Shown here: positions 10,188 through 59,620 of the stretch, in pieces
Layout: each line of letters starts with the position of its first letter
How positions within the stretch are numbered: the first letter of the stretch is position 1
Assembly (NCBI GenBank): GCA_963930775.1
Contig: OZ005689.1
Coordinates: 20,279,262 to 20,343,261 of the forward strand
Direction of reading: 5' to 3'
Length of the DNA stretch: 64,000 nucleotides
DNA from: Cliona cf. orientalis
Lineage: Eukaryota; Porifera; Demospongiae; Clionaida; Clionaidae
Translations under genes and position numbers: made by a program
The notes under the pieces: model-generated
The model's database searches: none
What the model was told of the DNA's origin: nothing
Seen by the model: only the letters and a program-made list of their open reading frames with translations

Positions 10188-10431
10188 TGTAGTATGGTTA
10201 ATTATTAATACTTACTTTTCCTGTTAATTTCCTCATGTATATTTCCTGCTCTTATGTTATCTTATGTTATCTTATGTTATGGCGTGCGCCACCCATGCTT
10301 TGTACTGTCATTGTTTGGTTCATGCAGACCTATTGTTCTCTCTGTCCATATATATCATATGTTGTATGTAGTGCACTTTAATGAAATGATAATATTGTTG
10401 TTTTGAAGTGATCGTTAACTGCGACACTACA
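10188..10431 (+). repeat. 5' LTR (244 bp)
   Basis: Begins TGTAGTATGGTTAATTATTA and ends GCGACACTACA. Compared with the 3' LTR it contains CTTATGTTAT three times in tandem (about 10252-10280) instead of once, and differs slightly near 10360. Confidence 0.95.
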
Positions 10432-10444
10432 TTGGCGACGAGTG

Positions 10445-13400
10445 ATGGCAGAAGCCTCGTGTCCAATCGGACACATTGGGGAGTACGACCCCCAGGCAGA
10501 GAACATTACTGCTTACCTGGAAAGGCTGTCGCTATACATGGACGCCAACTCCGTTGCTGACGAGCGAAAAGTCACCGTTTTACTTACCGTTATCGGAGCG
10601 AAGACTTACGGAATTCTAAAGAGCCTCACGAGTCCAGCCTTGCCAAAAGAGAAGTCCTTGGATGACCTCCAGGAAGCACTAAAGTTGCATTTCGACCCAA
10701 AGCCGTTGGTGATCGCGGAATGCTTTCAATTTTATCAGAGGTCTCAGGCAGACGGTGAGTCGGTGGCAGAGTTCGCCGCTGATCTACGACGTCTCACTAT
10801 TCGGTGCAACTTTGGAGATCTTCTTCCGCAGGCATTGAGAGATAAGTTCGTTTGCGGAGTCCGGAATAATGCAATCCAAAAGAGATTGCTGACTGCAGAG
10901 GACACACTCACGGTGGACAAGGCACTAGAAATGGCTCAGGGGATGGAAACCGACCACGATATGAAAACAATGAAAAATAATTCTTCAGCAACACCCACTG
11001 CAGCAAAGTCTAACGGTGCGAGGAAGGCCTGCTACAGGTGTGGCAGGAATAACCACCACGAGAAAGAATGTCGCTTTAAAGACGCCAAGTGCCATAAGTG
11101 TGGCAAACAAGGGCACATCGCCACAGTGTGCCGATCGAGTGCACAGAATTCAAAGGCCAGTTCGCGGGGTCCAAATCGTCGACGTAAGGCGGGCAACACT
11201 AAGTGGGTGGAGACTCAGGCCGAGGAAGACCCACCTACTACTTCTAAGGATGACCTGGCTTTATTCACGATAGGGAGTGCTTCAAGCAGTCCGATTCGGG
11301 TGGAACTTGAACTTGATAGCAAAGCAGTATCGATGGAAGTCGACACAGGCGCGGCTGTGTCGATTATGTCGGGAGCAGTTTTCACCTCACATTTCCCACA
11401 GAAGCACCTCTCCCCTTCAGCCGTCACCCTGAAAACGTACACCGGAGAACCCATGAAGGTTTTGGGAGAAGTGGAAGTATCCGTGCAGTACGAACAACAA
11501 CCTCCACAGCAGTTACCACTTGTGATTGTCGAAGGAGGGGGACCGTCCCAACTTGGCCGCAATTGGCTCCATCACCTCAAGCTGAATTGGAGTCATATCC
11601 GGGCAGTAAGCATGCCTAATGATTCTCTTCCAGCCATTTTGGAAAATTTCAAGGATGTTTTCGCTGATGGGCTGGGAACGATCCAGTCTGTCAAAGTAAA
11701 ATTGTCTGTCGATGAATCCGCTCGACCCAAATTCTTCAAATCGAGGCCTGTACCATTGGCCACCAAAGCTGCTGTGGAACATGAGCTGGATAGACTCGAG
11801 AGTGAGGGGGTGCTCGAGAAGGTTGACTTTAGCGACTGGGCCGCCCCTGTTGTCGTCGTACCAAAGAAGGACGGCAAGGTACGATTATGTGGTGCCTATA
11901 AGGTCACTGTGAACCCTGTTGTGGATATCGACCAGTATCCGCTACCCCGATCCGAGGAGCTCTTCGCGACGCTAGCAGGAACACATTTCACAGTTGGACC
12001 TCACATGCTTACCAACAGCTGATCCTGGACGAGGACTCTAGATAGTTCGTAACCATCAACACTCACTCATCGTGGCTTGTATCGCTATACCAGGTTGCCC
12101 TTCGGCATTGCCTCTGCCCCCGCAATTTTTCAGAAAACAATGGATATGATTCTTTAGGGCATGCAAAGGGTAATCTGTTACATTGATGATATTTTGATCA
12201 CCGGGAAGACGAAAGCCGAGCACTTGAAGAACGTGGTGGCCGTATTGCAGAAGTTTCGAGAACATGGACTGCGAGTCAAAAAGCAGAAGTGTGAGTTTTT
12301 GCAACTATGTGTTGAGTATTTAGGCCACAATATTGATGCTAAGGGGTTGCATGTGTTGAAGAGCAAAGTGGAAGTGCACCTATCCCTCGTAATGTCCAGG
12401 AGCTGAGGTCATTTTTGGGTTTATTGAATTACTATGGACTATTTATTCCAAACCTAGCCTCTATTTTGCACCCTTTGAATGAGTTGCTCAGAAAAGATGT
12501 TGAGTGGGTGTGGTCTACAGAATGCAACAAAGCTTTTGAATTAGCCAAGGAGAAGCTCGTATCGGCTGATGTACTAGTACATTATGATTCAACCCTCCCA
12601 GTAAAGCTTGCTGGAGATGCCTCCGCGTACAGAGTGGGTGCAGTGATTTCGTATATCATGCCCGATGGTACCGAACGCCCAATCGCTTTTGCTTCGAAAA
12701 CCCTCTCTAGCAGTGAACGCAACTATTCCCAGATTGAAAAAGAGGGGCTGGCCCTAATTTTCGGGGTCAAGAAATTTCATACTTACTTGTACGGGCGTCG
12801 ATTCACTCTAGTCACAGACCACAAACCCCTGACTACAATTTTTGGTCCAAAGAAGGGTATACCCGCCATGGCTGCTGCTCGACTCCAGCGATGGGCACCG
12901 TTACTTGCTGCCTACTCGTACATGATTGAGTTTCGTCCCACCAATGATCATTCAAACGCTGACGCACTCTCTCGCCTCCCTCTCAATGTTATTAGCACAG
13001 AAAGCCTGGCTGCTGAGTCTGCTTTTTGCAACATCACACTACTTGAGAGCTTACCTGTCACAGTAACAAAGCTCCAGGCTAACACGCGCACTGATGCTAT
13101 TCTCAGTAAAGTTTGCAAATTCATAGTGGAGGGGTGGCCAGAAGAGAGAGATTCTGACCTAAAGCCTTATTATCACAGGAAAGACGAATTGACAGTTGAG
13201 AGTGGATGTCTATTGTGGGGGACGAGAATGATAGTACCTACCAAGCTCAGACCACGGTTACTGCAACAATTACACAGGGATCATCCTGGAGTATGGAGTA
13301 TGGAAGATGAAGGCAGTTGCCCGTAGCTACTTCTGGTGGCCTGGCTTGGATAAGGAAATCGAGCAAGTTGCCAGCAGCTGTGTGGAGTGTCAGTGAGTGA

Positions 13401-14416
13401 AGAATTCACCACCCAGTGCTCCACTACATCCGTGGGTGTGGCCAACTAAGCCGTGGGAGAGGATACACCTGGATTTTGCAGGCCCCTTCCAGAATGCCAC
13501 ATTCCTGGTTGCCGTGGACGCGCACTCAAAGTGGCCAGAAGTGTTCGTCATGTCCAGCACTACCGCTACTTCCACCATTGTCGTGCTGAGACAGTTGTTT
13601 GCCGCCTACGGATTGCCTGCTCAAGTTGTCACTGATAACGGCTCGCAATTTACGTCGGATGAGTTTGCCACTTTCATGAAGATGAATGGAATAAAGCACA
13701 TTAAGAGTGCGCCGTACCATCCGGCTACAAATGGACTCGCGGAAAGATTCGTACAGTCTCTGAAGCAAGCTCTTAAGACGAGTTTGAGTGGTGGTAAAAC
13801 ACTTCATCATCGACTATCCAATTTCCTCCTAACTTATCGATCGTCTCCACATGCTACGACAGTAGCGTGCTCATTGTTTCTCAAACGTCAGATTCGCACT
13901 CGCTTCGATCTCCTAAAGCCTAATCAAGAGGCACATGTAACTGAGAAGCAGTCGCAGCAGAAAGCTGATCACGACCAGAGTGCCAGGAGTCGCCAGTTCC
14001 AGGTTGGCCAGAGTGTTATGGCTAAGAATCTTCGTCCTGGACCCAAGTGGGTACGTGGAGTCATTGTGCAGAGCCTTGGGCCGCTGTCTTTCCTCATTAA
14101 GATGAGAGATGGACAAACCTGGAGAAGACATGTGGATCATCTTAAGAAACTCCACACTAATCCAGGAACTGAGAATGGAGATGAGAACTCTAACTCAGAT
14201 GCTGACAGCTGGGAGCTACCCAGTAGTACACCCACAAACGCTCCAGAAAACACAGAGTCAGGAGATGCTGCAAGAGATGGTGTTGAACCTGCTCCGGCAG
14301 ACAAACTGCCTAACACCTCTGAGAATGAGGCTGACGAAGCTGAGGCCTCTTCAGGAACTAGCACTCGACGCTATCCATCCAGAGCTCATCATCCTCCTGA
14401 TTATTACAGTCAGTAA
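10445..14416 (+). pseudogene. gag-pol: Ty3/gypsy gag-pol with several breaks
   Basis: Reading order is Gag, protease, reverse transcriptase, RNase H, integrase. The first ATG is at 10445. Gag ends in two CCHC zinc knuckles (CYRCGRNNHHEKEC and CHKCGKQGHIATVC, about 11034-11130). Protease has DTGA (about 11343). Reverse transcriptase starts well but the frame is lost near 11985-12020, and stops lie at about 12042 and 12154; the catalytic YIDD box is present at about 12180. RNase H (about 12600-12970, TDHKPL and DALSRL) is in an open frame to 13326. The integrase zinc finger is split by a frameshift and a TGA (13395), after which the DDE core (D near 13470, TDNGSQF, NGLAERF) and a GPY-type tail run open to 14416. 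At least four lesions, so the protein cannot be made whole. Confidence 0.92.
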
Positions 14417-14493
14417 CAGTAAACTTTTGGGGAATTTGATTGTATCATCTTTCTTTATTTGAGTTGTGTACTTTATGATTTAGTGTGGGGGAG

Positions 14494-14710
14494 TGTAGTA
14501 TGGTTAATTATTAATACTTACTTTTCCTGTTAATTTCCTCATGTATATTTCCTGCTCTTATGTTATGGCGTGCGCCGCCCATGCTTTGTACTGTCATTGT
14601 TTGGTTCATGCAGACCTGTTGTTCTCTCTGTCCATATATATCTGTTATAGTGCACTTTAATGAAATGATAATATTGTTGTTTTGAAGTGATCGTTAACTG
14701 CGACACTACA
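14494..14710 (+). repeat. 3' LTR (217 bp)
   Basis: Same TGTAGTATGG start and CACTACA end as the 5' LTR, but with only one CTTATGTTAT unit. Followed by the CTTTC duplication. Confidence 0.95.
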
Positions 14711-18409: not shown

Positions 18410-19460
18410 AAGACAGAGATAAACCCATTGCACCATCAGGAGTGCATGGGACATTTATTATTTTTATGGGTAAAACAATCCATTATCATAATAGCAAGTG
18501 AATAATTTCATCATGTTTTACAGTAAAAACAGGAAACCACAGGATTTGTTTCTTTACTACTTGTCCTAATAATAAAAAGGGTGACACCTTGGTATGTTCC
18601 AGACTTTGTTGACATGATAGCAATTTCTAAATTCACTTGTGCTATGGTGGTTTCCTTCTCTCCTCTAGATAATATTATTGTCACAAATATATATGCTATG
18701 TGAATTACTCCATAGGAATGTTATAATTTCTCATATAATTCTGTTTACATTAAAGGCCAGACAAACCCTTTGCACCAACAGAGTATGTACATTTTATGGG
18801 AAAACCTGACATTATGGAAAAGTGAACACTAGCAGCAAGAACAGGAAACCACAGGATTTGTTTCTTTATTAGTTGCCCTAATGATAAAAAAGTGTGACAC
18901 CTTGGTATGTTGCAGACTTTCCAAAGATGAGAGCAATTTCTAAATTCACTTGCAATGTGCTATGGTGGTTTCCTTCTCTAGATAATATTATTGTCATAAC
19001 TATGCTATGGGAATTACTCCATAGGAATGTTACAGTTTCTCATATAATTCAGTCTACATTAAAGGCCAGACAAACCCTTTGCACCAACATGAGTACTACA
19101 TTTTATGGGAAAACCTGACATTATGGAAAAGTGAACACTATTTAGCAGCAAGAACAGGAAACAACAGGATTTGTTCCTTTACTAGTTGCCCTAATGATAA
19201 AAAAGTGTAACACCTTGGTATGTTGCAGACTTTACAAAGATGACAGCAATTTCGAAATTCACTTATGCTATGGTGGTTTCCTTCTCTCCTCTAGATAATA
19301 TTAATGTCATAAGTATGCTATGGGAATTACTCCATAGGAATGTTATAGTTTCTCATATAATTCTGAGGCCAGACAAACCCTTTGCACCAACATGAGTATG
19401 TTGTATATTTTATGGGAAAACCTGACATTATGGAAAAGTGAACACTATTTAGCAGCAATT
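18410..19460. repeat. 312-bp tandem repeat, about 3.3 copies
   Basis: AGGAAACCAC begins units at 18531, 18843 and 19156 (spacing 312 and 313). Each unit has CTGACATTATGGAAAAGTGA, GACACCTTGGTATGTT and GGAATTACTCCATAGGAATG. Units 2 and 3 are most alike, the first partial unit most diverged. No open frame spans a unit; a small AT-rich satellite or multimer of a transposon interior. Confidence 0.9.
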
Positions 19461-32860: not shown

Positions 32861-32962
32861 ATGTCCACCAGACGAGGTAGCTATACATTTATGAGTTTAG
32901 TTACGCAGCCTTTGATATTGATGCCTTTTTCTTTCAGGACGTGGGTATGGTAAACCTACGTA

Positions 32963-33632
32963 TGTGACCGGATTTGGGAAAACCCTCCCTCCGTATGGGA
33001 TTTTTTCAGAAATTTGAGTTTGATGCATGATTGATAAGCTCTAGCATAGAGCTAACCCGCGTTCAAGTCTTAGGCCGATTGCACGCTTCGTTGTTGAGAT
33101 ACAGCGCTTTGTTTGCAATCGCACCACACCCCCAATAATCGTGAAATTACGGTCTAAAGGTGTTGCTATGCACACGTATGGCGTTTCCGCATACTATGCA
33201 TGACCCGGAAATCAATTAAATGGACCTGGGCGGAGCTGTTCGAAATGAATGTAAAGTTCAAGCAAGAGTTGAATTTCGTTCTTGACGACAGACGACTGTT
33301 CTTAGATGCCCAAGAAGCTAAAAAGGTGAGCGAACGTACAGTAGTTCGATGAGTCTAGCTGTATCTAGGTAGAGAATTCTAATTAGCGCCCATAGCAACG
33401 GGCTCTGTGTACGGCAGCTGTGCTGACTAGGTGGGTCAAAGTGAAGGCTTATTTCGCCTTTGTATAGCACAACTAGCCTCCGTAGAAGACGGCAACAGTT
33501 AGAAGAAGGGTTGTTTGACATGTACATGACAAAATCTGGACTTTGTCAAATTTTGACCTGAGCTACTAAAAACGCGCATTGCGTGAATTGCGCGCGGATC
33601 CCATACGGAGGGTTTTCCCAAATCCCGTCACA
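32963..33632. mobile_element. MITE G, copy 1, 670 bp, inside an exon
   Basis: Ends TGTGACCGGATTTGGGAAAA and its near-perfect inverse at 33607-33632, flanked by TA on both sides (32961-32962, 33633-33634). Other copies are at 48527-49195 (inverted), 49372-49562 (right end only) and 62320-62385 (fragment). TA target suggests Tc1/mariner mobilisation. No open frame of note. Confidence 0.92.
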
Positions 33633-33783
33633 TACGGTGAACTTATTGATATTTTAGTGGGGCTTGAAGGACAAGCAGATGCGGCTGACTTGTTATGCTT
33701 AGAAATTTGCAGGCGATATCCAAATTTATCGGTTGGCCGACCGTCAAGACTCTTCGATACTGTACAACGTATAGTAGGACCTA

Positions 33784-33810
33784 CAGTACAGATCAGCGGA
33801 AAGGTAAACG
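33784..33810 (+). repeat. Left terminal inverted repeat
   Basis: 27 bp beginning CAGTACAGATCAGC; differs from the inverse of 38224-38250 at two positions. Confidence 0.93.
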
Positions 33811-33818
33811 GAAGCCGC

Positions 33819-33951
33819 TGCGGATCCGCGGAATGGACGCGTCCAATCCTCGTATGCTAGTATGTGGATATGCGGATAATGGGCCGGACGTCCGCAGCCA
33901 GCTGCGCACGCGCGGTCATCTGCCCGCGAATCCGCGCGGATGATCCGCAGA
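33819..33951. promoter_or_regulatory. Left subterminal GCGGA motif array
   Basis: Eight GCGGA or TCCGC pentamers in about 130 bp, three of them packed as GCGGATCCGCGGA. Chance would give well under one. Such clustered subterminal motifs are typical binding sites for transposases or accessory proteins; which protein binds here is unknown. Confidence 0.6.
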
Positions 33952-34033
33952 TCGGACGCATGCGCGCGCGGTTGCGCAATCATTGCATTTTTCGACCACG
34001 CCCAGAACGTGTGCGAGCGAGGTGGTAAACAAG

Positions 34034-35050
34034 ATGGGGCGAATGAGTTTGGCTACGAGAAGCAGAGTTGTGTCGCTGTCGCAGAGTGGATATCCGCTCT
34101 CCAAGATACAGAAGCATCTACAAAAAGAAGGAACTATGATCAGTAAAAAGTCGCTACACTTACTATTGAAGAAGTATAAAACGACCGGGTCAGTGGCCGA
34201 CCGCCGAACAGTGAAGCCTCCAAGGAAGCTTGGCGATGAGCACTATCGCTTCATTGATGATTGCATGGCAAGTAATGACGAGTTGACTGCGAAGAAACTA
34301 CGTGATAAGCTGCTAGAAACTTTTCCAGGTTTGAATGTGAGCGTGAGTACGGTGAAAAGAGCGCGTATGGAGCTAGGATGGACGGCAAAGAAGACGCGGT
34401 ACGGTGCTTTGGTGTCAGAAAGTAATCAAGAAAAACGACTGGTGTGGTGCAATGAAAGGATCGAGATGAATGACATGGATTTTGATGATGTAGTGTTTTC
34501 CGATGAATGTACTGTTCAGTTGGAATCTCACAGAAGGGTAACGTTCTATAAGAAAGGCCAACCAGTAAGATACAAGATGAAGGCAAAACATCCTCCAAAG
34601 GTCAATGTGTGGGCAGGGATATCTTCTCGTGGAGCAACTAATGTAGTCGTCTTCACAGGAACTCTCACAGCAACACGGTATGTCGACATTCTTGAAGCTG
34701 CTCTTATCCCCTTTTTAGATGAGGTCTACCCCGACGGACACAGATTCCAACAAGATAACGACCCTAAACATACTAGCAGATATGCAAAGGATTATATTGA
34801 GGAAAAGGGAGTGAACTGGTTCAAATCCCCTGCCTCAAGTCCCGACCTCAATCCTATCGAATTGATGTGGCACGCATTGAAGGACTATTTAAGGAATGAA
34901 TACAAACCAAAGAATCTTGGTGAACTTAAATCTGGTATAAGGGCCTTTTGGGCAACTCTTACTCCAGCAATTTGTAAGAAATACATAAGTCATTTAAAAA
35001 AGGTAATCCCAAAAGTTATAGAAGTTCAGGGATTACCTTCAGGATACTAG
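34034..35050 (+). CDS. Tc1-like transposase, DD34E, intact
   Basis: Open frame of 338 residues, started at MGRMSLATRSRVV since the upstream in-frame ATG adds nothing family-like. Residues 1-110 are two helix-turn-helix units for end binding (IQKHLQKEG, SLHLLLKKYKTTGSV, LRDKLLETFPGLNVSVSTV). The catalytic core has VFSDECTV (first Asp, about residue 157), QQDNDPKHTS (second Asp, about 250) and SPDLNPIELMWHALK (Glu), with 34 residues between the second Asp and the Glu. It cuts and joins element ends at TA targets in the nucleus, which agrees with the TA flanks of this element. No stop, shift or missing catalytic residue, and usual family length. No intron. The next gene's TATA box begins 158 bp after its stop. 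Confidence 0.95.
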   Translation: MGRMSLATRSRVVSLSQSGYPLSKIQKHLQKEGTMISKKSLHLLLKKYKTTGSVADRRTVKPPRKLGDEHYRFIDDCMASNDELTAKKLRDKLLETFPGLNVSVSTVKRARMELGWTAKKTRYGALVSESNQEKRLVWCNERIEMNDMDFDDVVFSDECTVQLESHRRVTFYKKGQPVRYKMKAKHPPKVNVWAGISSRGATNVVVFTGTLTATRYVDILEAALIPFLDEVYPDGHRFQQDNDPKHTSRYAKDYIEEKGVNWFKSPASSPDLNPIELMWHALKDYLRNEYKPKNLGELKSGIRAFWATLTPAICKKYISHLKKVIPKVIEVQGLPSGY

Positions 35051-35207
35051 TGATTTTGTACAACTAATAATCTTATTATTCTGTGTATCATGCCATACTG
35101 CTTGCACTTTAACCTTATCCCTTGACCTTACATATTTGTATTGCTTTGATGTCTTCATTAGTACAAAGGTTACTTGTATTTGAAGGGTGGTGATAACTTG
35201 GGAAGTG

Positions 35208-35216
35208 TATAAAAAG
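35208..35216 (+). promoter_or_regulatory. TATA box of the BEN-domain gene
   Basis: TATAAAAAG, 55 bp before the ATG at 35263. It makes the ATG at 35227 unlikely because that would fall upstream of the expected transcription start. Confidence 0.65.
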
Positions 35217-35262
35217 AGCATGCAAAATGCATTTGAGCCAGAACACAGAAACAGAAATAACC

Positions 35263-37694
35263 ATGGCTTTCGTAAACAGAAGACCCCTCACCAGTAGACA
35301 AGCTATGCGCAAGGCCCTTAAAGAAACAACTTTAGCCAGTCACTTCATGGTGAGATTTGTGGAAGATCAGGCTGTCAGTGTTGTTTCTTCAAAGCACATT
35401 GTTGAGCCTCCGCCAACTAACCTAAAGGTGTTCGATGAGTGCACTGTGAAGTGGAGTGATGACAACGCCTACAAAGCTACTGTTCTATCCATGGGTAAGT
35501 GAATTATCCCATGTTAATTTGTATGTCCATGTACATGTACATTCAGAAACTATAATATGTAAATAATGTAGGCAATGAAAAAGACGTGAGGAAAGCAGAA
35601 AGGAATCTCCTAAAACCAGGTTGTAGTGACTCAGAGAACTGTACTCCAACACAAAAGAGGCAGAGGGAGGACAACTCCGAGAATGGTCCAGCACCAAAGA
35701 AGGCACGAAAATCTACCAAGGGCACTCCAACTACTACTAAAAAGACACCGGCATCCAAATATAATTATAAAGAGGTATGTAATAAATTTCACATGCATTA
35801 AAATTGACAATCTATGCACGAATTTCATTGTTGATTTATACATACATGTATGTACATATTGTATGCAGCCTAAAGACAAGTTTGTGATGGAGTTAGGCAA
35901 GCCTGCTTCTACCAAGCCCCCTCCATCTGACTCGGCAACAGCTACATCATCAGAGTCAAACGAGATGACTGTTGCTACCCCAGTTAAGGCCACTTCTCCT
36001 ACATACGAGATCACGGTTTCTACCCCAATTAAGGCCACTTCCCCTACATCAGCCCCACAATTGAGTATTTCACATGTAAGTAAATGTACATGTACCGTAT
36101 CCTCCCGAAAATAAGCCCCCTTCGAAAATAAGCCCCCTCCCCTCTTTGACCTTCAAATTCTTGCACAGGTATGTTTGCCTCGATTATAAGCCCCCCTCTC
36201 ACCAAGTAGATAGACTGCACATAATATACACGCGCGCGAGCACGTATGTACGTACGTAACCCCGCCCTTCAATAATTGACTACGAGTACAAAGATGGTGC
36301 TGGCTTTTAGAAAAGCCTGTTTTGAAGTCATTCTGTTATGATGGCACTTCTAGCTTGGCAAAGACACTTACGAGCCGGTCAAGATGCTTTTACTTTCCTC
36401 CAAAGACGTACACACACAGAACAACAAGTCCTTTTCCTACCGCCGATCCTCGTGTTGCCGCTCTTTTGGAGAAAAGACAAGCAAACTCTGGATATTTCCC
36501 GTGGTACGTGACCAACGATGGTGGCTAAGGGGGGCTTATATTCGAGGGAAAGTGCATATTCGAAAATAAGCCCCCTCCCCAGTCTAGGTCATGTCTACTG
36601 CTGAAAAAGGGGGGGCTTATTTTCGGGAGGATACGGTACATGTACACATGCATGTATCTACATGTATTACGTATTGTTGAGTATACATGTACTTGTACAT
36701 AGAATGGTGAAGATGGTAGTAGCAGTGATGATGACAGTGGCAGTGAGAGTGGTGAAGATGATGAAATCCCGGTCCATAGCACTAAGAATATCATCGCCAT
36801 CTCCTTCAATGCAAACACAACAGATACTTCCACACAAACATTAGATACGCAACAGTGCAAATGTGACGAAGTGATGAAGAAACTGGACACAATCTTGGAT
36901 GTGTTGACCAATATTGGGGATGAGTTGGTGTTGCATGGCTCTGACATCCACAACATTCGGTTGAAGAGTGAGGCTATACAGGACAAGCTTGAGCAGTTGG
37001 TGAGTTACTAAAATGTATGATTGATTTACATGTACAGGATTACTATATTATTATACAAGCGTGTGCATGAGACAAGACTAGTGCAAGCATTATTGCATGT
37101 ATGTGTATTCCATAACACTCTTTCTTGTCTATACAGAAGTCTCAGCCATCCCATCAAGCTACAGCACCTGAAGTTCTGCCGGCTGTTAGAGAAGAGCATA
37201 GAGAAGCTCCACCAAGATCAGTCTCTGCAGCAGCTCCTCAACCAGATCGTGTTGCCTTAGCAACTCCTCCCCCTCAACCACGCAGGGTAGATGTAACTCC
37301 CACCCCAACCCCTCCACCAGCGGTCACTCCAGCTCCTCCCCCTCAACCAGATCAGGTCCCTCCCTCTGCACCACTTCGTCCTGTTCAGTCTGGTCAGTCT
37401 GGTCGTAAACCACAGCTTCCTAGCCCAAGTAAACTCATTACCATCAAGAATCAGGCTGTATCCAGAAGAAATTTCGCTAAACTACTGTCTGTGCACACAT
37501 TCAGTGAAGAAGAAAGACGTGTCAGCAATGTCAATGGACGGCAAGGAAAGCAGAAGCTGTCTCCTAATCGCACAGATGAACTAAAAGCAGCTGTCTTCAG
37601 GCTCTATCCACTGGAGCCTCGAGAGAATGAAGCTACAGCCTGGAAGGACTGTGTTAGAGCCATAGATGAGGGTAATAGAAAGCTGCCAAAGTAG
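35263..37694 (+). CDS. BEN-domain protein, five exons, transposon passenger
   Basis: Exons 35263-35494, 35572-35774, 35869-36075, 36703-36999 and 37137-37694; all borders are GT..AG, all joins keep frame, giving 498 residues. The start MAFVNRRPL sits in a CCATGG context. Residues ~25-90 look like a Tudor-like fold (VRFVEDQAVSVV, ECTVKWSDD, YKATVLSMG). Then a Lys/Arg-rich stretch (PKKARKSTKG), likely nuclear localisation, an imperfect TVATPVKATSPT repeat, an acidic run and a short coiled coil (DEVMKKLDTILDVLTNIGDE). After a Pro-rich linker a C-terminal BEN domain (~residues 415-495) has KLLSVHTFSEEER, KLSPNRTDELKAAVFRLYP and WKDCVRAIDEGNRKL. BEN domains bind DNA and recruit repressors. A MITE sits in intron 3. 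It may bind the subterminal motifs of this element; that is inference. Confidence 0.82.
36093..36638. mobile_element. 546-bp MITE in intron 3 of the BEN gene
   Basis: TACCGTATCCTCCCGAAAAT at the left and its inverse at the right, with AAGCCCCC/GGGGGGCTT just inside and repeated in the interior. TA-type ends. It entered the BEN gene after that gene was in place. Confidence 0.85.
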
Positions 37695-37745
37695 ATATGG
37701 GTATAGCTGATCATAATAGCACTGCAATAATAATTTATTGACAGT

Positions 37746-37751
37746 AATAAA
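37746..37751 (+). terminator. Polyadenylation signal of the BEN gene
   Basis: AATAAA 52 bp after the stop codon at 37694. Confidence 0.5.
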
Positions 37752-37894
37752 TTTTAAGTACATGTATGCTGTATTCATACTAACACTACAATATTGACAT
37801 ATTATGCTGCATTACAATGTAACTCTTTGTTGTGTTTATGATAATAATGCTGTTGTATTGCTACACATGTATCTTATCTCCAGTGGTCTTGTAG

Positions 37895-38005
37895 CTTACA
37901 GAGTAGGAGTAGCCAGCTTGACATCACAAACAGTCAGTGCACACGCAGTGCAGTTTAGATGTGGTACAGCACTGCAGTGCTTACAGAGCAGGAGTAGCCA
38001 GCTTG
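37895..38005 (+). repeat. Direct repeat near the right end of the Tc1/BEN element
   Basis: CTTACAGAGTAGGAGTAGCC at 37895 recurs at 37980 with one change; also CAGTGCACACG- and TAGTGCACACG-type words. Period about 85 bp. Confidence 0.7.
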
Positions 38006-38093
38006 TACTGTTTACATTCCAAACCTTTAGTGCACACGTAGTAGTACAGTGCTGCAGCTATTTGCGTGTGCAGACTTAGCGACCGCGGACACT

Positions 38094-38211
38094 TAGCTAA
38101 ACCGCGGGCAGGATGCGGGTGTCCGCAAGATTGGCTACCTAGCGCTTCCTCGGATTATTAACACGCCACCTGCGGACAATCAACAAGTACTCCGCGTGCA
38201 TACCGCGGACT
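38094..38211. promoter_or_regulatory. Right subterminal GCGGA motif array
   Basis: Five GCGGA or TCCGC pentamers in 118 bp, mirroring the left array. Confidence 0.55.
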
Positions 38212-38223
38212 AGACGCGGTGCA

Positions 38224-38250
38224 CGTTTACCTTTCTGCTGAACTGTACTG
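38224..38250 (-). repeat. Right terminal inverted repeat
   Basis: 27 bp ending GAACTGTACTG, followed by the TA duplication at 38251-38252. Confidence 0.93.
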
Positions 38251-38493
38251 TACGACAGCATCCCTACGAGGCACAGCAAAACTAACTGGGTCACCGTTGG
38301 TATCATATAGGAGAAGAGTTTGGGAACCTCGTATCAGAACTACAGGTAATTTTAAAATATTCTAATAATGTGGATATTAATTATGTTTTATCATTTTTAT
38401 AGGGTGCATCACAGTGCTTCCACCAGAACTGAGAGAACAGGGACTATGCCAAGAAGTGCTGTCTTCAACTCTTGAACTAGTGCGAGCTGGGAA

Positions 38494-40850
38494 TGTGGAT
38501 CATTCATGGAAACTGTGATACTCCTACCATTGGGTTTTATAGAAAGCTTCACACCTACATTAAACGGCAACCAAACCTATCAAAAGTTTTAATTGGAAGG
38601 CTCTATTCTGTTATCGATAGTAATTTTCAGGAGAAGGGGAGTAAACCAGATAACATTTATAGGTTTGTGGACTCTATCGATACCAGTTTTCAAACCACTG
38701 ATGCTGAGTCAACTTTTCAAGATATTATTGGTCATCACAAGAATATCCCTGAAATTAGAAAACTTTACTACAGCTTGTTGGCTGATCAGGTTCCTGTATC
38801 TAAGATCAAAGATATTATTCGAACAGTTTTAAAATGTTTCAATCCTGCTATGAATGTAGAGAACTAAGATTGCCTCAAAAAACGTGTGCTAGCTATATGC
38901 ACAAAGATGAGTTGAAGATCATTAGTGCCACTCATAAAGCACATATTATCTGCAGTGATGCAAGCAAAGGCAAAGGAATTTATCTAAATACTGATGGTAC
39001 AACCAAGCAACAGAAGAAATTAGGTGGGGTTGTGGCTAATGATATGGTTTTGAGTGTCAATGAAGTACCAGATGGTAAAGCAATCAGTGCTATAGAAGAT
39101 ATTTCGAGAGAATTTGAAAAATTCAGGAGAATTGCTGAAATGCTTGGATTACCAAATGCTAATTCGATTAACTGGACATTGGTCAAGTCTTCAACATCCG
39201 ATTCTGCGTCTACACAGAAACATTTGAACAAACTCATTAAAGAAAACAGAAAAAGAGATGAAGAAAGATTCGGCCCAGCCACATGCACTGTTGAGACGCT
39301 GGATTTGATCGAAACCTTCTGTTCAATGCACTTGGGAGTGAACCTCAGGAACGCATTCTTAAATGGAACCATGGAAAGTGAGCAAGATGAGATACCATAG
39401 GGTTGATACCTTTGTTGAGGAATTTTGTAAATTATTCGGGAAACCTGGAGGTCCAGAGTATGCCTGCGGTGTTCATTCCTTATCTGACTTTCTAAAGTTG
39501 CAAATATCTACTACTAAGGATCAAGAACAAGCTTATTACCAGACCTGCTCAAAAGTAAATCTACACAGGCAAGTAGGTAGCAGGTATTTCGTATCTGCAC
39601 TTAATGCTGGCAAAATCCTTTTTTTTTAAGGATGCCGCTATTGAATTCCTGAAATTCACTGGAAAGGGCACAGGAGGTAATAAATTAGTGTGTGATGTTT
39701 TTGCTGAGCTAGCTCACCTTAAAGCTGATAGTCTCATGTACTATCATGTGTACGGAGATCTCTATATGCTCTCTAAATCAAATGATCTTGGGTTATCAGT
39801 TTTGTCTATGAATCAGCACTACCTGGAATTGCATTGTTACTTATCTGAAGTTGAAACTAGTCCTGAGATTGTTTGATCGGAATTATCATGTTTTCAGTCT
39901 GAGAAACAGATATATTATGGTTCTAATTCTAAAGCAAACCACCGTCTATCTTCTCAACCTGTGTACAAAAAACTGTTCGACAGTATTGATTCAGATATTG
40001 ATCGTGATGATTTGACTACATTATTGATTAAAGGTGCATCGAAAATGAAGGAGGAATTGTCCTCGTATGCTCAAGATCAACTTCCTGGAGGTTGCTATTG
40101 GGAACCAGACAAATAGATGCAAGACATTTTGCGTGAACTAAAGCCGAGCAATGAATACCAAATTTGCACCAGATGGCACATTCAAATCTCGTACAAGTTA
40201 AAAAAAAACATTGAAATGGCTTTCGAACCTTCCAATTGTCGACCTGGCAGTAAAACAAATGAGATTTGTAAGTAAGGAATGCCGGGAAGAAGAAAAGATG
40301 AGATCTCAACAACGCCAACAAAGATGTTGGAAGAAAATGCCAAAAGAATAGCATCGGTGAGGAAATAACGTGGAGAGAAAGATAAACTGTCCCAGTTGCA
40401 TCTTATTACTTCCATCAGATGAACTTAAAGAACTACTTGTAATTGATGAAGAAACGATAACTACTGCAAAGAAAAATAAAAAAAAATTGACCTTTTGAAG
40501 ACACAAATTCGAAGAAAGTTTTAAACCAAACAGTACCTATAGTATTCACTATTAATCACAAGCAGTGGCCTCTAAATGACATCATAAAGGAGCTGTGTGA
40601 TTTTATTGATAAAAGTATACTGCCTGCAGAATGTAAGTCCTTCATCAGGAATCTGGCTTCCTTAATTTGTAGAAAGGTAAAGCAAAGATTTTTGGATGAG
40701 ACAAGTCGCACTTCAACCTGGTACTCTGGTACAGTAATAGACTATTCACACCAGGACAAAATCCACTGCCTCGCATATGGAGAATCTGAGCATGCATTGT
40801 CATTATGATCTGACATTTGACTTAATACTTGGAGATTTAATTTTTTTTTA
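38494..40850 (+). pseudogene. Decayed gene of a multi-copy marine-invertebrate family
   Basis: A long plus-strand reading in several frames: PEIRKLYYSLLADQVPVSKI (38749-38810), KTCASYMHKDELKIISATHK (38880-38937), LNTDGTTKQQKKLGGVVAND (38985-39045), then SINWTLVKSSTSDSASTQK (about 39163-39222) and FCSMHLGVNLRNAFLNG (39318-39370). Further on come DKIHCLAYGESEHAL and a WYSGTVIDYSH block (about 40720-40800). Frame changes fall near 38850, 39390, 39620 and 40200 on, with stops. The DGTT and SDSAS positions recall the spaced acidic residues of a DDE transposase, and I know similar proteins in many copies from corals and sponges, but I cannot name the family. Probably the body of the gene that starts at 32861. 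Confidence 0.55.
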
Positions 40851-44980: not shown

Positions 44981-47830
44981 GTCCTGGTATATCTTACAGG
45001 ATGAGATCACGTCGATGTCGTGTGATATATTTGGCCAGTAAACGATAAGTTGAGCCCTTGTTTTGTCGATACCAACCCTTGGTGTGAGTAATGCAACTGT
45101 GCCAGTACGGCTCTACGCATCTTGGCAGGTATTAAGAGTCTGCAGCCGTACACAATGAGGTCATTCTCCACCGACAGGTGAGTGCATATGCTCCAATAAG
45201 GTCTGCATGATTGAGGTAGTTGTTTGTGTTGGTTTGGAAATCCGTTGGTGACATACTGTTTCAGTGGTGGGTAATCTGGGTCGTCACTGGCAATGTCCCT
45301 TAGGTTTTGTAATCGCAAGTTGTCGATTGGCGGCGTAGTGATTACCCTAATGTCTGCTGCCGTGGGTGCCTGGTTGTGATCGAGGTCACATTCTGCTAGG
45401 GTCTCATGTGGCTCTGGGTTGCTGTTAGGATTGCGGGATAGAGCATCTGGAGCTTGGTTTAGGGATCCTTTGAGCAACTCAGTTGTGAAGTTGTATCCCA
45501 TAAGCTTGGCTTTCATCCGCTACAATCTTGGGTTCTTGATTTTGTCAAGGCGATGGTTGTTCAGGATGGGTACGAGCGGATGGATGATGATGATGGTCAG
45601 TGATGACGTTGAAGTGTTGTAGACCAGCGAGGAAGATGTTGCACTTGGATATCGCCCATGTTACCGCCAGCAACTCTAGTTCGATGATGGCATAACATGA
45701 CTCTGTGTCGGAGAGGAATCGTGAACCAGCTTGTACCAGGCGCCATGTTTCGTCATGCTTCTGTTAGAGTACGAAGCCAAGTCCCTCTCTGCTGGCATCT
45801 GTGCACAATCGCGTGGGTTTGGTGAGGTCGAAGTAGGACACGACTGGTGTGGATGTGATTGAGTTCCTGATTCCTCAAATGCAGATTGAAATTCATCCGA
45901 CCAGGTGAACTCGTTCTTAGTGCTGAGTAAGGGTCTGAACGGTGACAGTAGGTTGGCGATGGTGCTAGTGCTGGATGAGAGCTGGTTTACTACTCCTATG
46001 AAGGACCGCAACGCAGTACGGCTGGACGGGGTGGGGAAGTTGTAATGGCAGGGTCGATCTGGTAGCCGTCTTTGGAGAGGATGAATCCAGCAAATAGGAC
46101 TGTGGGTTGGCCGAATACCCACTTGGAGGTGTTAAGAGTGATCTTTTGTTCTTTGCACCTTTGGAGGATTGAGCGCACATGGTCGGAGTGCTTGGTGCTT
46201 GGATGTCGTCCACTATTTGTCGTATCCTGGAAGCCCCTTGAACGCCTCGTCCATTCATCGGTTATAGTGTTCCGAGATTGACAAAATGCCGTAGGGAGCT
46301 CTGAGGTACTTGAAGCGTCCGAATGGGGTGAGGAATGTGGTGAGGTCTTAACTAGCCTCGTCAAGGGGACACTGGTGGTATCCCTTCATAGCGTCTAAGT
46401 TGATGGTGGTGTTTTCGGTTGCTATGTCGGCGACTGCTTGTGAAGGTGTTGGGGATTGATAACACTCGCGTTTTACGTATTTGTTCAGGTGTGATAGGTC
46501 CACGCACATTTGGATGTTGTCGGAGTCCTTTTTGGGTGTCGCCACAATAGGGGCGCACCATTCGGTTGGATATATGATGGGGGCGATGATCCCTTGGGTT
46601 TCAAGGATCTCAAGTTCAGCCTTCAGCTTGTCTCTGTATGCGAACGGGACTGTGCGTGGCGTTTTGATGCAAAACGAGAGTAGTAGAACACCTTTAACTG
46701 CAAGGTAGATGTGTAGGGTATCTCTGTAGGTAACTGTGCCGAGTGTGATTGTCACGGGTAGTTGGCCGATTGGAGTCATCCAGTGACCCGTGACTCCCCT
46801 GGGTACCATGTCTGATGGTAGCAAGTTGTTGCAGTGGTCCCCTAGCATTGTGATGGTGTCTGGGCCTGCGACAGATATGTCTGCTCCGGAGTCGGGCAAG
46901 GCCGTCGTTGTGGCACTGCCATTGAGTACTGATATGTGAACGTTGATAGTTGGGGCTGGATCTGTGATGTTGCTAAGTATCCAGGGTGATCAGGTGCTCG
47001 ATGGCTTGGCCGCTTTGATTCGAATGAGGTTTGATTGTGGGTCTTGAGGATTCTTTCCGGGGTGCTTGAGATTTGCATACCTTGGTGAAGTGGCCCACTT
47101 TGTTGCAGTAGTGGCACACTACCCTGAATGCTGAGCATGTTTTGCGGCCACCAGGGTGGAAGGAGGATCCGCACCCCGGGCAAGTTGTTGTTGGTGATGA
47201 TGATGATAGGCCGGTGTTCAACCCCAGGCGCCTGATTGCTTGAATAGAGGCACTGGCATTGCTGGTAATCTGGACTCGCTGGTGTCGTGCTGCTTCGTAT
47301 GCACGGCACTTTTCTATAGCTGCATTGAGGGCGAGATCCTTGACTCATAGAAGGTCTTCTTTCGTCTCAACGTCTAGGATCTGATCGCGGATGCTTCGTT
47401 GTTGGCAGTTGTCCGTGCAAAAGTTACACGTTTTTGCCAATTCTCGGAGGGCTACAAAGAAGTCGTCAAACGGCTCTCCCTGTTGTTGCACCAGTTTCCT
47501 AAAGTTCCTACGTTCGACTGTTTCATTGATTTGACCTTGCACATACCTTTCGATAGCTGCTATGATACTGTCGACTTTGCCTCATTCATCACTGAGTCCG
47601 AGGTTGTCCACTATGGGATAGTCTCGCGGGAGAAGCAGAGTGTGAGTGCTTGGACTTGTGTAGCGTTGGTTTCTTCTGAGAGGCCGGATAGGCTGTAATA
47701 GGCCTGCCATTGGGCCTTCCACGCTTTGAAGTTGGACCCTCTGTCCACTTGTAGGTCTAGCTTTGGTAGATCTCCTTGGCGGAAAGAGTACGGCATGGTG
47801 TTTCTCAGGAACTGACTGTTCGCAGCACCA

Positions 47831-47976
47831 TGTACGATATCAACACTTTCATGAGAATAATTACACAAGCACATAAATACACACTAGTATCACGTGAACA
47901 CAACAACTGATAAATAGAGAGTAAAATACTAGTCAGTAGTTCATGAGTCCCAGTTCATAGAGTTCATTTCCTTACA
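47831..47976 (-). repeat. 5' LTR of the second gypsy element (146 bp)
   Basis: On the minus strand begins TGTAAGGAAATGAACTC and ends CGTACA, followed at once by TGGTGCTGCGAACAG, a likely primer-binding site. Confidence 0.75.
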
Positions 47977-47977
47977 A

Positions 47978-49371
47978 TTATGCTTCCGGTTCTACTATGA
48001 TATTAGCACAGACATCACAACATAGTAAATGGTCTTGAACCACCAGGTCACTACAGAAACTAGAATCAATGTAATTAGGGCAATATTCCGACACATTCTC
48101 AAGGTAATGTCTCACTGCAACAATCTCAACATCACATGGATTAATTATATTTTTTCTTAAAGGGGCTTCTATTGGGGTCCAATATATTACTGATTTAGCA
48201 GGCTCACCGGAACGACCAGCACGACCACATTCTTGAAAATAATCTTCAATTGCTTCTTGGAGCTCCATAATGAATAACATAATTTAAATCCACGAAGTTG
48301 ACACCCATACCCAAGGCAACAGTACAAAAGACCACACGAACTACTCCTTGCATACTTTTTATGATTACTTCCTTGTTATGATGTGGTGTTTTGGCATGGA
48401 ACATGCCGTACAATCTATTATCACTAATATGCTCAGCATTGGGAGGAAAGTAGCTGTTTGCCTCACCTAAAGCACACGATAAATGAGCGAATAAGTCTGC
48501 ACACATGTTTAATGAGTGACAATATATGTGACTGGATGTGGGAAAACGCTTCGTAAGGGATCCACGCGCGATTCACGCAATGCGTGTTTTTAGTAGCTCA
48601 GGTCGAAAATTGTCGAAGTCCAGATTATGTCATATACATGTCGAACAACCCTTCTTTTAACTGTTGGTGTCTTCTACAGAGGCTGGTCGTGCTATACGAA
48701 GGCGAAATAAGCCTTAATTTTGACCCACCTAATTGGCACACCTGCCGTACCCAGAGCCCGTTGCTATGGGCTGTAATTGGAAGTCCCACCAGCAAGCTAT
48801 CTAGATACAGCTAGATTCATCGAACTACTGTAAATTCGCTCACCTTCTAAGCTTCTTAGGCATCAAAGAACAATTGGCTGTCATTTTGGACGACCAAATT
48901 TGACCCTTACTCGATCGTTACGTTCATTTCGAGGGCCATCTAATTGATTTCCGGTTCACGTGTAGGTAGTATACGGAAATGCCATACGCGTGCATAGCAA
49001 CGCCTTTGGACCGTAATTTTTCGATTATTGGGTGTGTGGCGCGATTGTTAACAAGGTGCTGTATTTCTACAACGAAGCACGCGATCGGCCTAAAACTTGA
49101 ATGCGGGTTAGCTCTATGGCGGAGCTTATCAACCATTCATCAAACTCGATTTTCAGAAATATTCGTTATGGAGGGTTTTCCCAAATCCGGTCACAATAAG
49201 AATCGTCTGTGTGTTCTACTTATTAGTAAGTAGATAGTTGACTATTGGAGCAATATCTTCTACATCGAGACGGGGCCTCACCTCATAGTAAATGTTGGGT
49301 CGATTTGGTGACAAGTGTACCAACTTACACTCCGTCATCTCTAGCTTGGCTATACTATCACTACGAACTGC
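47978..49371 (-). pseudogene. RecQ-like helicase fragment
   Basis: Minus strand, from 49371: LSPNRPNIYYEVRP (about 49280-49320), a break by MITE G copy 2, then LFAHLSCALGE, RLYGMFHAKTPHHNKEVI and FCTVALGMGVNFVDLNYVIH (about 48290-48345). After a frameshift near 48255-48280 come EDYFQECGRAGRSGEPA (about 48190-48245), the RecQ motif VI, then a zinc-binding-like tail ending CCDVCANIIVEPEA and a stop at 47978. This is the second RecA domain plus part of the RecQ zinc region of a superfamily-2 3'-5' DNA helicase. The ATP-binding first domain is absent or unrecognisable. RecQ-like genes are abundant in invertebrate DNA transposons, which fits its place inside inverted repeats. Confidence 0.8.
48527..49195. 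mobile_element. MITE G, copy 2, inside the RecQ fragment
   Basis: Inverted relative to copy 1. TGTGACTGGATGTGGGAAAA at the left, GGAGGGTTTTCCCAAATCCG then GTCACA at the right. Splits the RecQ coding region. Confidence 0.9.
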
Positions 49372-49562
49372 GCGAAATAAGCCTTCATTTTGACCCACCA
49401 CCACGACTAGCCTCCGTAGAAGACGGCAACAGTTAGAAGGGTTATTCGACATGTATATGACAAAATCTGGACTTTGACAAATTTCGACCTGAGTTACTAA
49501 AAACGCGCATTGCGCGAATCGCGCGCGGATCCCATACGGAGGGTTTCCCAAATCCGGTCACA
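49372..49562. mobile_element. MITE G, copy 3, right end only
   Basis: 191 bp matching the right third of copy 1 (from GCGAAATAAGCCTTCATTTTG onward in blocks) to CCAAATCCGGTCACA. Sits at the upstream edge of the RecQ fragment. Confidence 0.85.
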
Positions 49563-50377
49563 TTTTTCCGTCATAAATACCTTCAAATACACTGCTTGCG
49601 ATTTTTCTTGATCACCATGCTTCACACTTTTTAACAAACCCTGGTCGTTGAATCATCTCCTTAAGGGATTCAATAGACTCCTAAAATAGTATACGTTGAG
49701 GATATAGAGATTTAGTACCACTTGATGTTCTCACCGTCTTCATAAGTAGCGTATTACAAGGCTTTCGTGCAGATTGTGGGTGATCGGTAAATTTGATGTA
49801 TGAACATCTTCCAGAAACTCTACTACCGTCTTGTTTGTTGTTTGTTTCACACTTTCAGCTACCAAATTTGACAAACTTGTCCAAGTTCTCCTAGATATCT
49901 TCGAACTATCCTGACAGTTCATGGAAGGTGCTGTACAAATTCTTGAAGTGGTCGTAATCCAAATACAGAGACTAGCAAAGTTAGAAAGGTTGATATAAAG
50001 GACAGCAGAACATTCATTCTCACATCGGACACTCTGAACAGAGTTTGCCATGTAAATATAAACATTAGATAGAGCCGTATAATTCGTACAACTTTTGAGT
50101 TAAAGGTAAGAATCTCCTCGTCAATGATGGCTTCATCATCTATCCATATATCCCAGGCAGAACTTAAGTACAAGAACTTGCAGTTTTCAAGGAAGTGTTA
50201 CCTTACGTCTACCACTTTCTTGCACTCTCAGGTCATGATTTTGCATGAATTTCAAGATATGCAAGGAATTTGGCCACAATCTTGAAAGATATCTTGCATA
50301 AATCTTGCATGAAAGCAAAGAAAGCTTACAAGAATAGGATAGCATCTTGCACATTATTCCACATACCAAGCGTGCAT
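49563..50377 (-). other. Possible further upstream RecQ-gene remnant
   Basis: Minus-strand frames at 50051-49740 (RCENECSAVLYINLSNFASL, then CTAPSMNCQDSS) and about 49680-49570 look protein-like but carry no helicase motif I recognise. Position and strand fit the same gene or a neighbour within inverted repeat H. Low confidence. Confidence 0.3.
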
Positions 50378-57841: not shown

Positions 57842-58738
57842 TCATATCCCGATCTTGCATGGGTCATTATTACCACTGCAAATATCGTATGCAAATGCTA
57901 AGGCAAGGACTCCACAATCGGAACCATTTGACTGCCTTCCAACATCCATCATTCTCACTACAAGCTGTTTAGCAGGACTGAACACAAGGCTGGCAATCAA
58001 TTTGACCGTCCCACTGGAAGCACTAGAGTACATGCTGTCGTACACATTGACCACTCCATCATCACATCCAACGTTGGAAATAGTACACCAGTGACAGCCT
58101 CCAACAAATATGATCTGCACAAATTCTCCTCTGAGGATTTGGAACGACGGACTCCTGTGAACTGCCGGATCTTGCAGGCCGGCTATGTTTGGGAATTCCT
58201 GCAAGATGAGCAACTGACCGGCCCTAATGACTGTGTCTGAGAGCCAACCATCAGATGAAACAATTTCCCGTTTCTTATCTATGTGCAAGGTGTACAGTGG
58301 AGTGGACACCCAGGTGTTGCTTACAACTGCAGAACCATCGGCTGAAGACGAGGCTGTGGGATCGTCAGTCAGGTCAACAACATGCTCAACAACAGGCTTG
58401 GCTAGGCCACAGTTACACAATTTGAGATTTGCAGAATCATTTGCTACATCTCGTAGTGAGGTCCTTCCTGCAGTTTGCCAGTTGTCTACTGAAATGGATG
58501 GATCACCGCTGATAGCCGTCAACTGCCCCTTTGCATAGCCAGTAGTGAGAACTCCCTTGTGACAACATAGTAGGCATTGATCACCAAACACTTGCACAAC
58601 GCAGCAAGGAAGGTGACATTTGCCCAATTTGCTATCATGCAAATTCACGCAGTCACCCACCTTGAAGTTGGGCCTAGGCCTTTTCGCTGGGGGAGGCTTC
58701 TCACCACCTGCTTTTCTCTCTTTCCTCGACGAGTACAC
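57842..58738 (-). CDS. Ulp1/SENP-like cysteine protease, transposon-associated
   Basis: Open frame of 298 residues, the C-terminal part of the gene continuing upstream to about 59620. It begins with a basic linker (PPPAKRPRPNFKVGDCVNLHD), then a Cys-containing region. The protease domain starts at SDGWLSDTVIRAGQLLILQEF (about residues 165-185) and has the expected triad: GCHWCTISN (His, about 217), VNVYDSM (Asp, about 236) and QSNGSDCGVLALAFA (Gln and Cys, about 270-276). This is clan CE family C48, enzymes that remove SUMO or ubiquitin-like tags. The frame ends soon after DPCKIG, shorter than usual, so the last helix is lost. Fusion or close pairing of such proteases with DDE transposases is known in invertebrate Mutator-like elements. 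Activity uncertain. Confidence 0.75.
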   Translation of the reverse strand: MYSSRKERKAGGEKPPPAKRPRPNFKVGDCVNLHDSKLGKCHLPCCVVQVFGDQCLLCCHKGVLTTGYAKGQLTAISGDPSISVDNWQTAGRTSLRDVANDSANLKLCNCGLAKPVVEHVVDLTDDPTASSSADGSAVVSNTWVSTPLYTLHIDKKREIVSSDGWLSDTVIRAGQLLILQEFPNIAGLQDPAVHRSPSFQILRGEFVQIIFVGGCHWCTISNVGCDDGVVNVYDSMYSSASSGTVKLIASLVFSPAKQLVVRMMDVGRQSNGSDCGVLALAFAYDICSGNNDPCKIGI

Positions 58739-59620
58739 CTCGTATCGACCGGCTTGCTTGCTTTACGAGGTTTGGATTTCACACAAGCATCATCCTTGCC
58801 ATTCTTGTCAGAGTCAGCAGAAGAGGCCTTGGGAAACAATGTACACCCAACGTAACGATTTCATGAGTTTGAGGGGCAATCCCTCTTGTGTGCTCGTCCG
58901 AGCGCTCGCAGTAAAGAAGAGCTCCATTGCAGTAATTTCGAATGCTGAAAGTAGCATTCTTGCTGTGATGACCACGTGTCATCCACGTGCCATCAGCGGA
59001 CGTGACGCACGACTCCATGAACCCAGTTCATTTTGGTCCATGCATTGCATGTCATCCTTTGCATCACTGCACATCTTATCGACCATCTCTTTGACAATAG
59101 GGTACATTCTCTTGATGGTCGAGTCAAACATTGGCCAACTAACTCCTTCAATCCCAAGTGCATGCTTCAATACCTTGTAATAAGTCACATGCGTGCAACC
59201 AGCTATGATAAAAGCCACCTGCACAGCAATACTAATTTCGGTAGCACAGCCAAGTTCGTATTTAGATGTTTCAAACAATGCCCACTGACTAGCACAACCG
59301 TTACAAGCATAGGTGATAGAAAGAGCACCACCCAGCCCATCACATGAATGGGACACAATGCACCTTTACAACCAGGTGTGGCACAACAACGTATTTGATT
59401 CACTTGCTTAATGAACTTGTTCAATTGTTTCAAGTCCATGAAGCAAATATTTGATGGAATAATTGACGTATTTTCTATGCCCTCTCTAACCTTTCTTTGA
59501 GGGATTGGAACGTACAGGGAGCTCAGTACTCTCCGCTGTCACGTTGAGACTATCAGTCTCTTCATCACTCTCCACTGTCACATTGAGACTATCATTATTT
59601 GACGTGGGAGTATCCTAAAT
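58739..59620 (-). pseudogene. DDE-like transposase upstream of the Ulp1 domain, broken
   Basis: Minus strand: an Asp/Glu/Ser repeat (SLNVTVESDEETDSLNVTAE, 59600-59540) after an AG acceptor near 59615; then MDLKQLNKFIKQVNQI, CCATPGCKGALCPIH (zinc-like, 59439-59335), a frameshift, and SITYACNGC...YELGCATEI with GVSWPMFDSTIKRMYPIVKE (about 59110-59165). After a second shift, VTSADGTWMTRGHHSKNATF (about 58945-59005), probably the first catalytic Asp block. The stretch that should carry the second Asp is missing, and a short Lys-rich piece leads to the protease frame. Architecture resembles Mutator-like transposases of cnidarians and sponges. At least two frameshifts and an internal deletion. Confidence 0.6.

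Follow-up and report, generated by a model that had tools for sequence, protein, structure and literature searches.

Structure of the element

We analysed a 64-kb window (the whole stretch of 64,000 nucleotides from contig OZ005689.1 of the sponge Cliona cf. orientalis; positions count from its first nucleotide) that contains, at 33784-38250, a Tc1-type element of 4,467 bp whose single pair of ends surrounds two genes on the same strand, one for a transposase and one for a protein with a BEN domain. The 27-bp terminal inverted repeats (33784-33810, plus strand, and 38224-38250, minus strand) follow the sequence CAGTACAG(A/T)TCAGC(G/A)GAAAGGTAAACG, agree with each other at 25/27 positions and are each bordered by a TA target-site duplication (33782-33783 on the left, 38251-38252 on the right), so that the inverted ends and TA flanks proposed in the first-pass annotation are correct, coordinates included. 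Allowing for up to three mismatches, the 27-mer was present in the window only at these two ends (mean of 0.00 in 100 shuffles), and this search found no second copy of the element within the window. Under a uniform-base model, the number of such pairs expected within 6 kb by chance is about 7e-5.

The transposase coding sequence (34034-35050, plus strand) is a single open exon of 338 aa that matches the Pfam family DDE_3 (E 1.6e-23) and has the Sleeping Beauty transposase SB100X as its closest solved relative (E 3.4e-21). The catalytic residues are D157, D241 and E276, and the 34 residues separating the last two give the DD34E spacing, as the first-pass annotation had it; with this spacing and its TA-flanked inverted repeats, the element belongs to the DD34E group of the Tc1/mariner superfamily. 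At the N-terminus of the transposase, the helix-turn-helix families HTH_32 (1.4e-6) and HTH_Tnp_Tc3_2 (3e-5) matched below their score cut-offs, and PAX matched at 0.063. In the inverted repeat/direct repeat subgroup (Sleeping Beauty type), the binding site is repeated once more inside each end. Such a second site was not seen at a threshold of at least 17/27: no internal match to the 27-mer reached it within the element, where diverged sites could escape this threshold, and the two internal matches of 16/27, at 33913 (minus strand) and 34764 (plus strand), correspond to the background rate (25 in the window). By its sequence, the element is best read as a two-gene cut-and-paste transposon of the Tc1 type.

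The BEN-domain gene and its product

The second gene is predicted to consist of five plus-strand exons, at 35263-35494 (with the start codon in the context ACCATGG), 35572-35774, 35869-36075 (which holds an in-frame 45-bp tandem duplication), 36703-36999 and 37137-37694 (encoding the BEN domain and the stop codon), separated by four GT-AG introns. Predicted splicing joins them into an open frame of 498 aa with no internal stop, whereas in 1,000 rounds of dinucleotide shuffling this coding sequence contained 24.4 stops on average and at least 12. Codon scores, trained on seven other open reading frames of the window including that of the transposase, were highest for the predicted frame among the three plus-strand frames in 5/5 exons. 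The five-exon gene of the first-pass annotation is thus upheld as a prediction of splicing drawn from the DNA itself. A TATAAA motif (TATAAAAAG; 35208-35213, plus strand), 55 bp upstream of the BEN start codon, is by its motif match a candidate promoter, and an AATAAA polyadenylation signal lies downstream of the stop codon (37746-37751, plus strand). Neither AATAAA nor ATTAAA occurs between the transposase stop codon and position 35781, so the transposase transcript may read into the BEN gene.

Intron 3 harbours a miniature inverted-repeat transposable element (MITE) of 542 bp (36095-36636) with 26-bp perfect inverted ends, CCGTATCCTCCCGAAAATAAGCCCCC, and TA on both sides, of which self-comparison of the window gave no further copy. 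Without the MITE, intron 3 would measure 83 nt and thus come near the 77 and 94 nt of introns 1 and 2, which supports this intron.

The protein ends in a BEN domain (Pfam BEN, residues 426-490, E 1.5e-6), whose 28.7 bits exceed the curated cut-off of 23.2, in agreement with the earlier assignment. N-terminal to it, all family matches were below threshold (SH3_Hsr9 0.051, Tudor_2 0.14, SMN_Tudor 0.2, DBD_Tnp_Mut 0.087), the search of this region against the PDB returned one weak match (0.76), and for a coiled coil only the sub-threshold matches Vps52_CC (0.027) and DUF1664 (0.23) were obtained. Zinc-finger and kinase families were absent from the Pfam matches of the protein with E up to 1. The N-terminus may resemble that of human BEND5.

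Among solved structures, BEND3 chains are closest to the BEN domain (E 0.0012 with the domain alone and 0.014 with the whole protein). In the phmmer alignment with E 0.0012, Arg494 of the element's protein is paired with an arginine of BEND3, which in turn aligns with position 110 of the BANP chain 7yug (E 0.76); this position corresponds to Arg316 of BANP provided that the chain, 118 residues long, comprises aa 208-324 (117 residues) and one preceding vector residue. Arg494 may thus be equivalent to the reportedly CpG-selecting Arg316 of BANP, a lead given by these weak chained alignments. The papers cited here by PMC number are represented by excerpts, to which our statements on them refer. 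BANP and BEND3 are reported to bind CGCG-containing DNA and to be repelled by its methylation, for which BANP needs oligomers, and the Arg316 site is reported to be conserved in CpG-binding BEN proteins and to select CpG in BANP and BEND3 (PMC11472053). The motif described for BEND3 is CCCACGCGC (PMC10407929).

CGCG boxes behind the ends of the element

Behind each terminal repeat lies an inner CGCG box, TCCGCGGAATGGACGCG on the left (33825-33841, plus strand) and TCCGCGGTATGCACGCG on the right (38193-38209, minus strand), which we propose as putative sites of the BEN protein. Both boxes occupy nt 42-58 from their end, and in this register they agree at 15/17 positions, with the consensus TCCGCGG(A/T)ATG(G/C)ACGCG, also written TCCGCGGWATGSACGCG; none of 5,000 dinucleotide shuffles reached this agreement, the best shuffled pair scoring 14. 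The boxes are set within subterminal arrays of TCCGC/GCGGA, with 9 copies at 33796-33948 on the left and 5 copies at 38085-38209 on the right. Counted over the outermost 250 bp on the left (9 copies) and 200 bp on the right (5 copies), this density compares with 0.5-0.64 per kb elsewhere, and the total of 14 in 450 bp was reached in 0/1,000 shuffles (mean 1.69, maximum 8). CGCG is nowhere in the window as dense as at the left end of the element, where it occurs 10 times within 250 bp compared with at most 6 times elsewhere (near 49301), and the observed/expected ratio of CpG is 1.54 and 1.21 at the two ends compared with 0.51 in the rest of the window. Between the polyadenylation signal of the BEN gene and the right array there is, in addition, an imperfect tandem duplication (37894-37949 and 37979-38042; 77%, spacing approximately 85 bp).

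Neighbouring features and searches of sequence collections

A repeat of approximately 670 bp with short inverted ends occurs at 32959-33636, 48525-49195 (inverted) and 49402-49563, its long copies being 81% alike, and the first of these copies ends about 150 bp upstream of the element. At 63013-63650 (minus strand) lies, in two pieces, the relic of a different IS630/Tc1-type transposase; one piece matches DDE_3 (E 1.6e-18), and the relic shares 38% identity over 52 residues with the transposase of the element. A Ty3-type retrotransposon at 10188-14710 is flanked by sequences resembling long terminal repeats (88% alike), and its gag/pol-like sequence is spread over three separate open reading frames, with RNase H domains in the one frame searched. 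Pieces of open reading frames at 45010-47883 (minus strand) resemble a second retrotransposon by eye, the piece at 46351-46989 being without a Pfam match. The window further contains a PIF1-like helicase fragment (1144-1662, E 3.3e-17), perhaps derived from a Helitron, a 313-bp unit repeated three times in tandem with 87% matches (18517-19458), and an open reading frame at 57845-58762 (minus strand) with a weak match to Ulp1-type proteases (Peptidase_C48, E 0.00018).

Among viral contigs, the transposase gave 31 pattern matches and the BEN protein 5, with no relatives in either case, and neither the trimmed BEN protein nor the pattern of the element's ends had a pattern match there. In prokaryote genome contigs, the 83 pattern matches of the transposase and the 20 of the trimmed BEN protein likewise contained no relatives. 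The BEN domain had no match in PHROGs, the end of the MITE none in the viral and prokaryote collections, and Rfam none at gathering scores; the neighbouring open reading frame at 38804-39397 gave 20 pattern matches and no relatives in the viral and prokaryote collections. Since these collections hold viruses and prokaryotes, the lack of relatives says little on a eukaryotic element.

Possible role of the BEN protein

The reading that we prefer, with a probability of roughly 0.4, is that the BEN protein binds the ends of its own element. Both genes are open, have the same orientation and are enclosed by one pair of ends, and an accessory role is favoured because a CGCG box stands in register at both ends of an element that encodes a BEN domain possibly of the CpG-binding type. 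The transposase would bind the outer 27-bp repeats and cut at TA. The BEN protein, probably an old acquisition from a host that now serves the element, would combine an N-terminal module (whose matches to Tudor-like families stay below threshold), perhaps a coiled coil, and the C-terminal BEN domain; it would bind the unmethylated CGCG boxes at nt 42-58 together with the TCCGC arrays and, pairing as an oligomer, bring together or mark both ends. Synapsis might thereby be aided, or the ends might be held unmethylated and accessible. The most specific form of this proposal is an animal-type, methylation-sensing Tc1 lineage that spreads by means of two proteins, with the outer repeats bound by the transposase and the inner boxes by a BEN protein that senses CpG. 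In our estimate this form is rather unlikely; if true, the element would move only with unmethylated ends, or would keep its ends unmethylated.

Several observations weigh against binding of the BEN protein to the ends. If the register is not fixed, 35/1,000 shuffles reach the local match between the inner ends, so it is the shared register that makes the match of the boxes notable. It is equally conceivable that the CGCG and TCCGC sites are used by the transposase or by a host factor, or that they form a promoter CpG island. The equivalence of Arg494 hangs on phmmer alignments with E 0.0012 and 0.76 and on the assumption of a single vector residue, and the last helix would be short, because the protein stops four residues past Arg494. 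Another group described the isolated BANP domain as insensitive to methylation (PMC10206803), and the structure predictions for exons 1 and 5 reached a mean pLDDT (predicted local distance difference test) of 49.8 and 55.0, too low for use. The insertion of the MITE into intron 3 may predate or follow the union of the BEN gene with the element, an ambiguity that we also count here. Finally, the element is a single copy within the window, and one copy cannot separate a component from a captured host gene; without the segment from 35051 to about 38060 it would be a normal Tc1 of approximately 1.46 kb, as capture predicts. The alternative left by the first-pass annotation, an accessory or regulatory factor or a captured gene, therefore stands in part: the anatomy of two genes is real and the in-register box leans towards the accessory role.

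Nearly as likely as binding to the ends is that a Tc1 of about 1.46 kb took up a complete host BEN gene, which rides along with no role in transposition. The captured block would lie between the transposase stop codon and the right subterminal region and include promoter, introns and polyadenylation signal, and the BEN gene is indeed self-contained, with its TATAAA at 35208, a start codon in ACCATGG, four introns and AATAAA at 37746; what remains after its removal, 1,267 bp on the left and about 190 bp on the right, has the standard size of a Tc1. The same CGCG boxes at both ends that would suit a CpG-type BEN protein speak against a mere passenger, and no repeat marking the borders of the block was seen: 35040-35262 and 37695-38120 share just two overlapping direct 9-mers, and the 20-nt inverted pairs of 90% identity (35089-35108/37080-37099 and 35552-35571/37786-37805) each have one arm in an intron and look like chance. 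That the BEN block has ends of its own inside the element, or sits in a nested carrier, was also considered, and 9-mer and 27-mer comparisons gave no such ends or carrier.

The CpG content bears on capture in both directions. The observed/expected ratio is 0.35 in the BEN gene and 0.80 in the transposase gene, and the ratio of CpG to TpG+CpA differs between the whole transposase and the whole BEN coding sequence (38:135 vs 29:245, p 0.0016), which favours capture over a component of the element; on the right, the low-CpG segment stops at 38064, where the CpG-rich end begins, as would a captured block. On the left, however, the best breakpoint (34405) sits within the transposase gene, off any gene border, and the part of that gene behind it does not differ from the BEN coding sequence (14:89 vs 29:245, p 0.47), a comparison biased towards such an outcome since the split was taken from the data. 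Plain halving of the transposase gene gave 11:63 for its second half vs 29:245 (Fisher p 0.31); as the CpG depletion of the BEN coding sequence is not significantly different from that of this half, no different mutational history is shown for it. The two transposase halves are themselves not significantly different (27:72 vs 11:63, p 0.064), which we count against the preferred reading. The CpG contrast was therefore dropped as a proof of capture, and with respect to component or capture we regard the CpG evidence as undecided.

An unlikely variant of a component role is that the BEN protein regulates expression or host silencing, as a repressor, insulator or anti-methylation factor, rather than synapsis. 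BEN proteins of human and fly are described as acting on chromatin and repression (PMC11472053), the left CGCG array (33796-33948) directly precedes the transposase start codon at 34034, and the ends retain their CpGs in a depleted window, all of which would fit a regulator. The right box is nevertheless kept in register though no gene of the element starts beside it, which points to a function at the ends. Taken jointly, binding to the ends and regulation make a role of the BEN protein as a component of the element slightly favoured overall. That unrelated ends or a nested element, by chance or through assembly, mimic one unit is very improbable, for although only one copy is present in a window rich in mobile elements, the TA on both sides, the 25/27 ends with their low chance expectation, the inner boxes in register and the lack of inverted 9-mers common to both flanks of the BEN block all argue against such a composite.

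Comparison with known systems

What is new here is the CGCG box that stands in register behind both ends, within dense TCCGC arrays. The appeal of Tc1 elements is that a single protein suffices to move them; a Tc1 that carries and uses a CpG-type BEN protein would, if the proposed binding is true, show how an element gains control or sensing of host chromatin, and might connect BEN proteins, which are known as chromatin factors of the host, with mobile elements. Should the BEN gene be a captured host gene instead, a complete intron-bearing gene within an otherwise intact Tc1 would be unusual too.

With Tc1-like elements of the Sleeping Beauty type, the element shares the DD34E transposase with DDE_3, the inverted ends and the TA duplication, SB100X being the best solved relative. 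It differs from them in its 4.5 kb, compared with the usual length of about 1.3-1.7 kb, in its second, spliced gene, and in ends that have a CGCG box and arrays, the 27-mer having no further match of at least 17/27 within the element. The En/Spm element of plants, whose TnpA acts at subterminal repeats, offers an analogy only: in both cases a second protein of the element is proposed on repeated subterminal motifs, and both the superfamily and the protein are different.

The first-pass annotation had considered Tc1/mariner elements to be normally limited to a transposase. This needs qualification, as the TBE of the ciliate Oxytricha are Tc1/mariner transposons with three open reading frames, the extra genes being under purifying selection (PMC4724952), so that a Tc1 with two genes is not unprecedented as a kind. 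A BEN-bearing Tc1 element, on the other hand, was not found in our searches of the open-licence literature, which did not extend to Repbase. In the excerpts retrieved, BEN appears just as a domain named in the title of a reference, with Tc1 in another place (PMC5704228), in wasp-derived sequences of polydnavirus type (PMC4190172) and as the subtype DUF4806 in zebrafish genes (PMC11075544), and the excerpt of PMC10027918, on transposon-derived factors, holds nothing on the BEN domain. The element resembles the TBE in carrying genes beyond the transposase and is set apart from them by description, since the TBE have a zinc-finger/kinase and a 22-kD open reading frame, with no BEN mentioned in the excerpt (PMC4724952), whereas here the BEN gene is the only accessory gene found. 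With BANP and BEND3 it shares the BEN domain, BEND3 chains being nearest, and Arg494 appears, by weak alignments, to fall on their CpG-selecting arginine (PMC11472053, PMC10206803, PMC10407929); those proteins are transcription or chromatin factors of the host, not borne by a transposon, whereas the protein studied here is encoded within a Tc1 element and has a shorter last helix.
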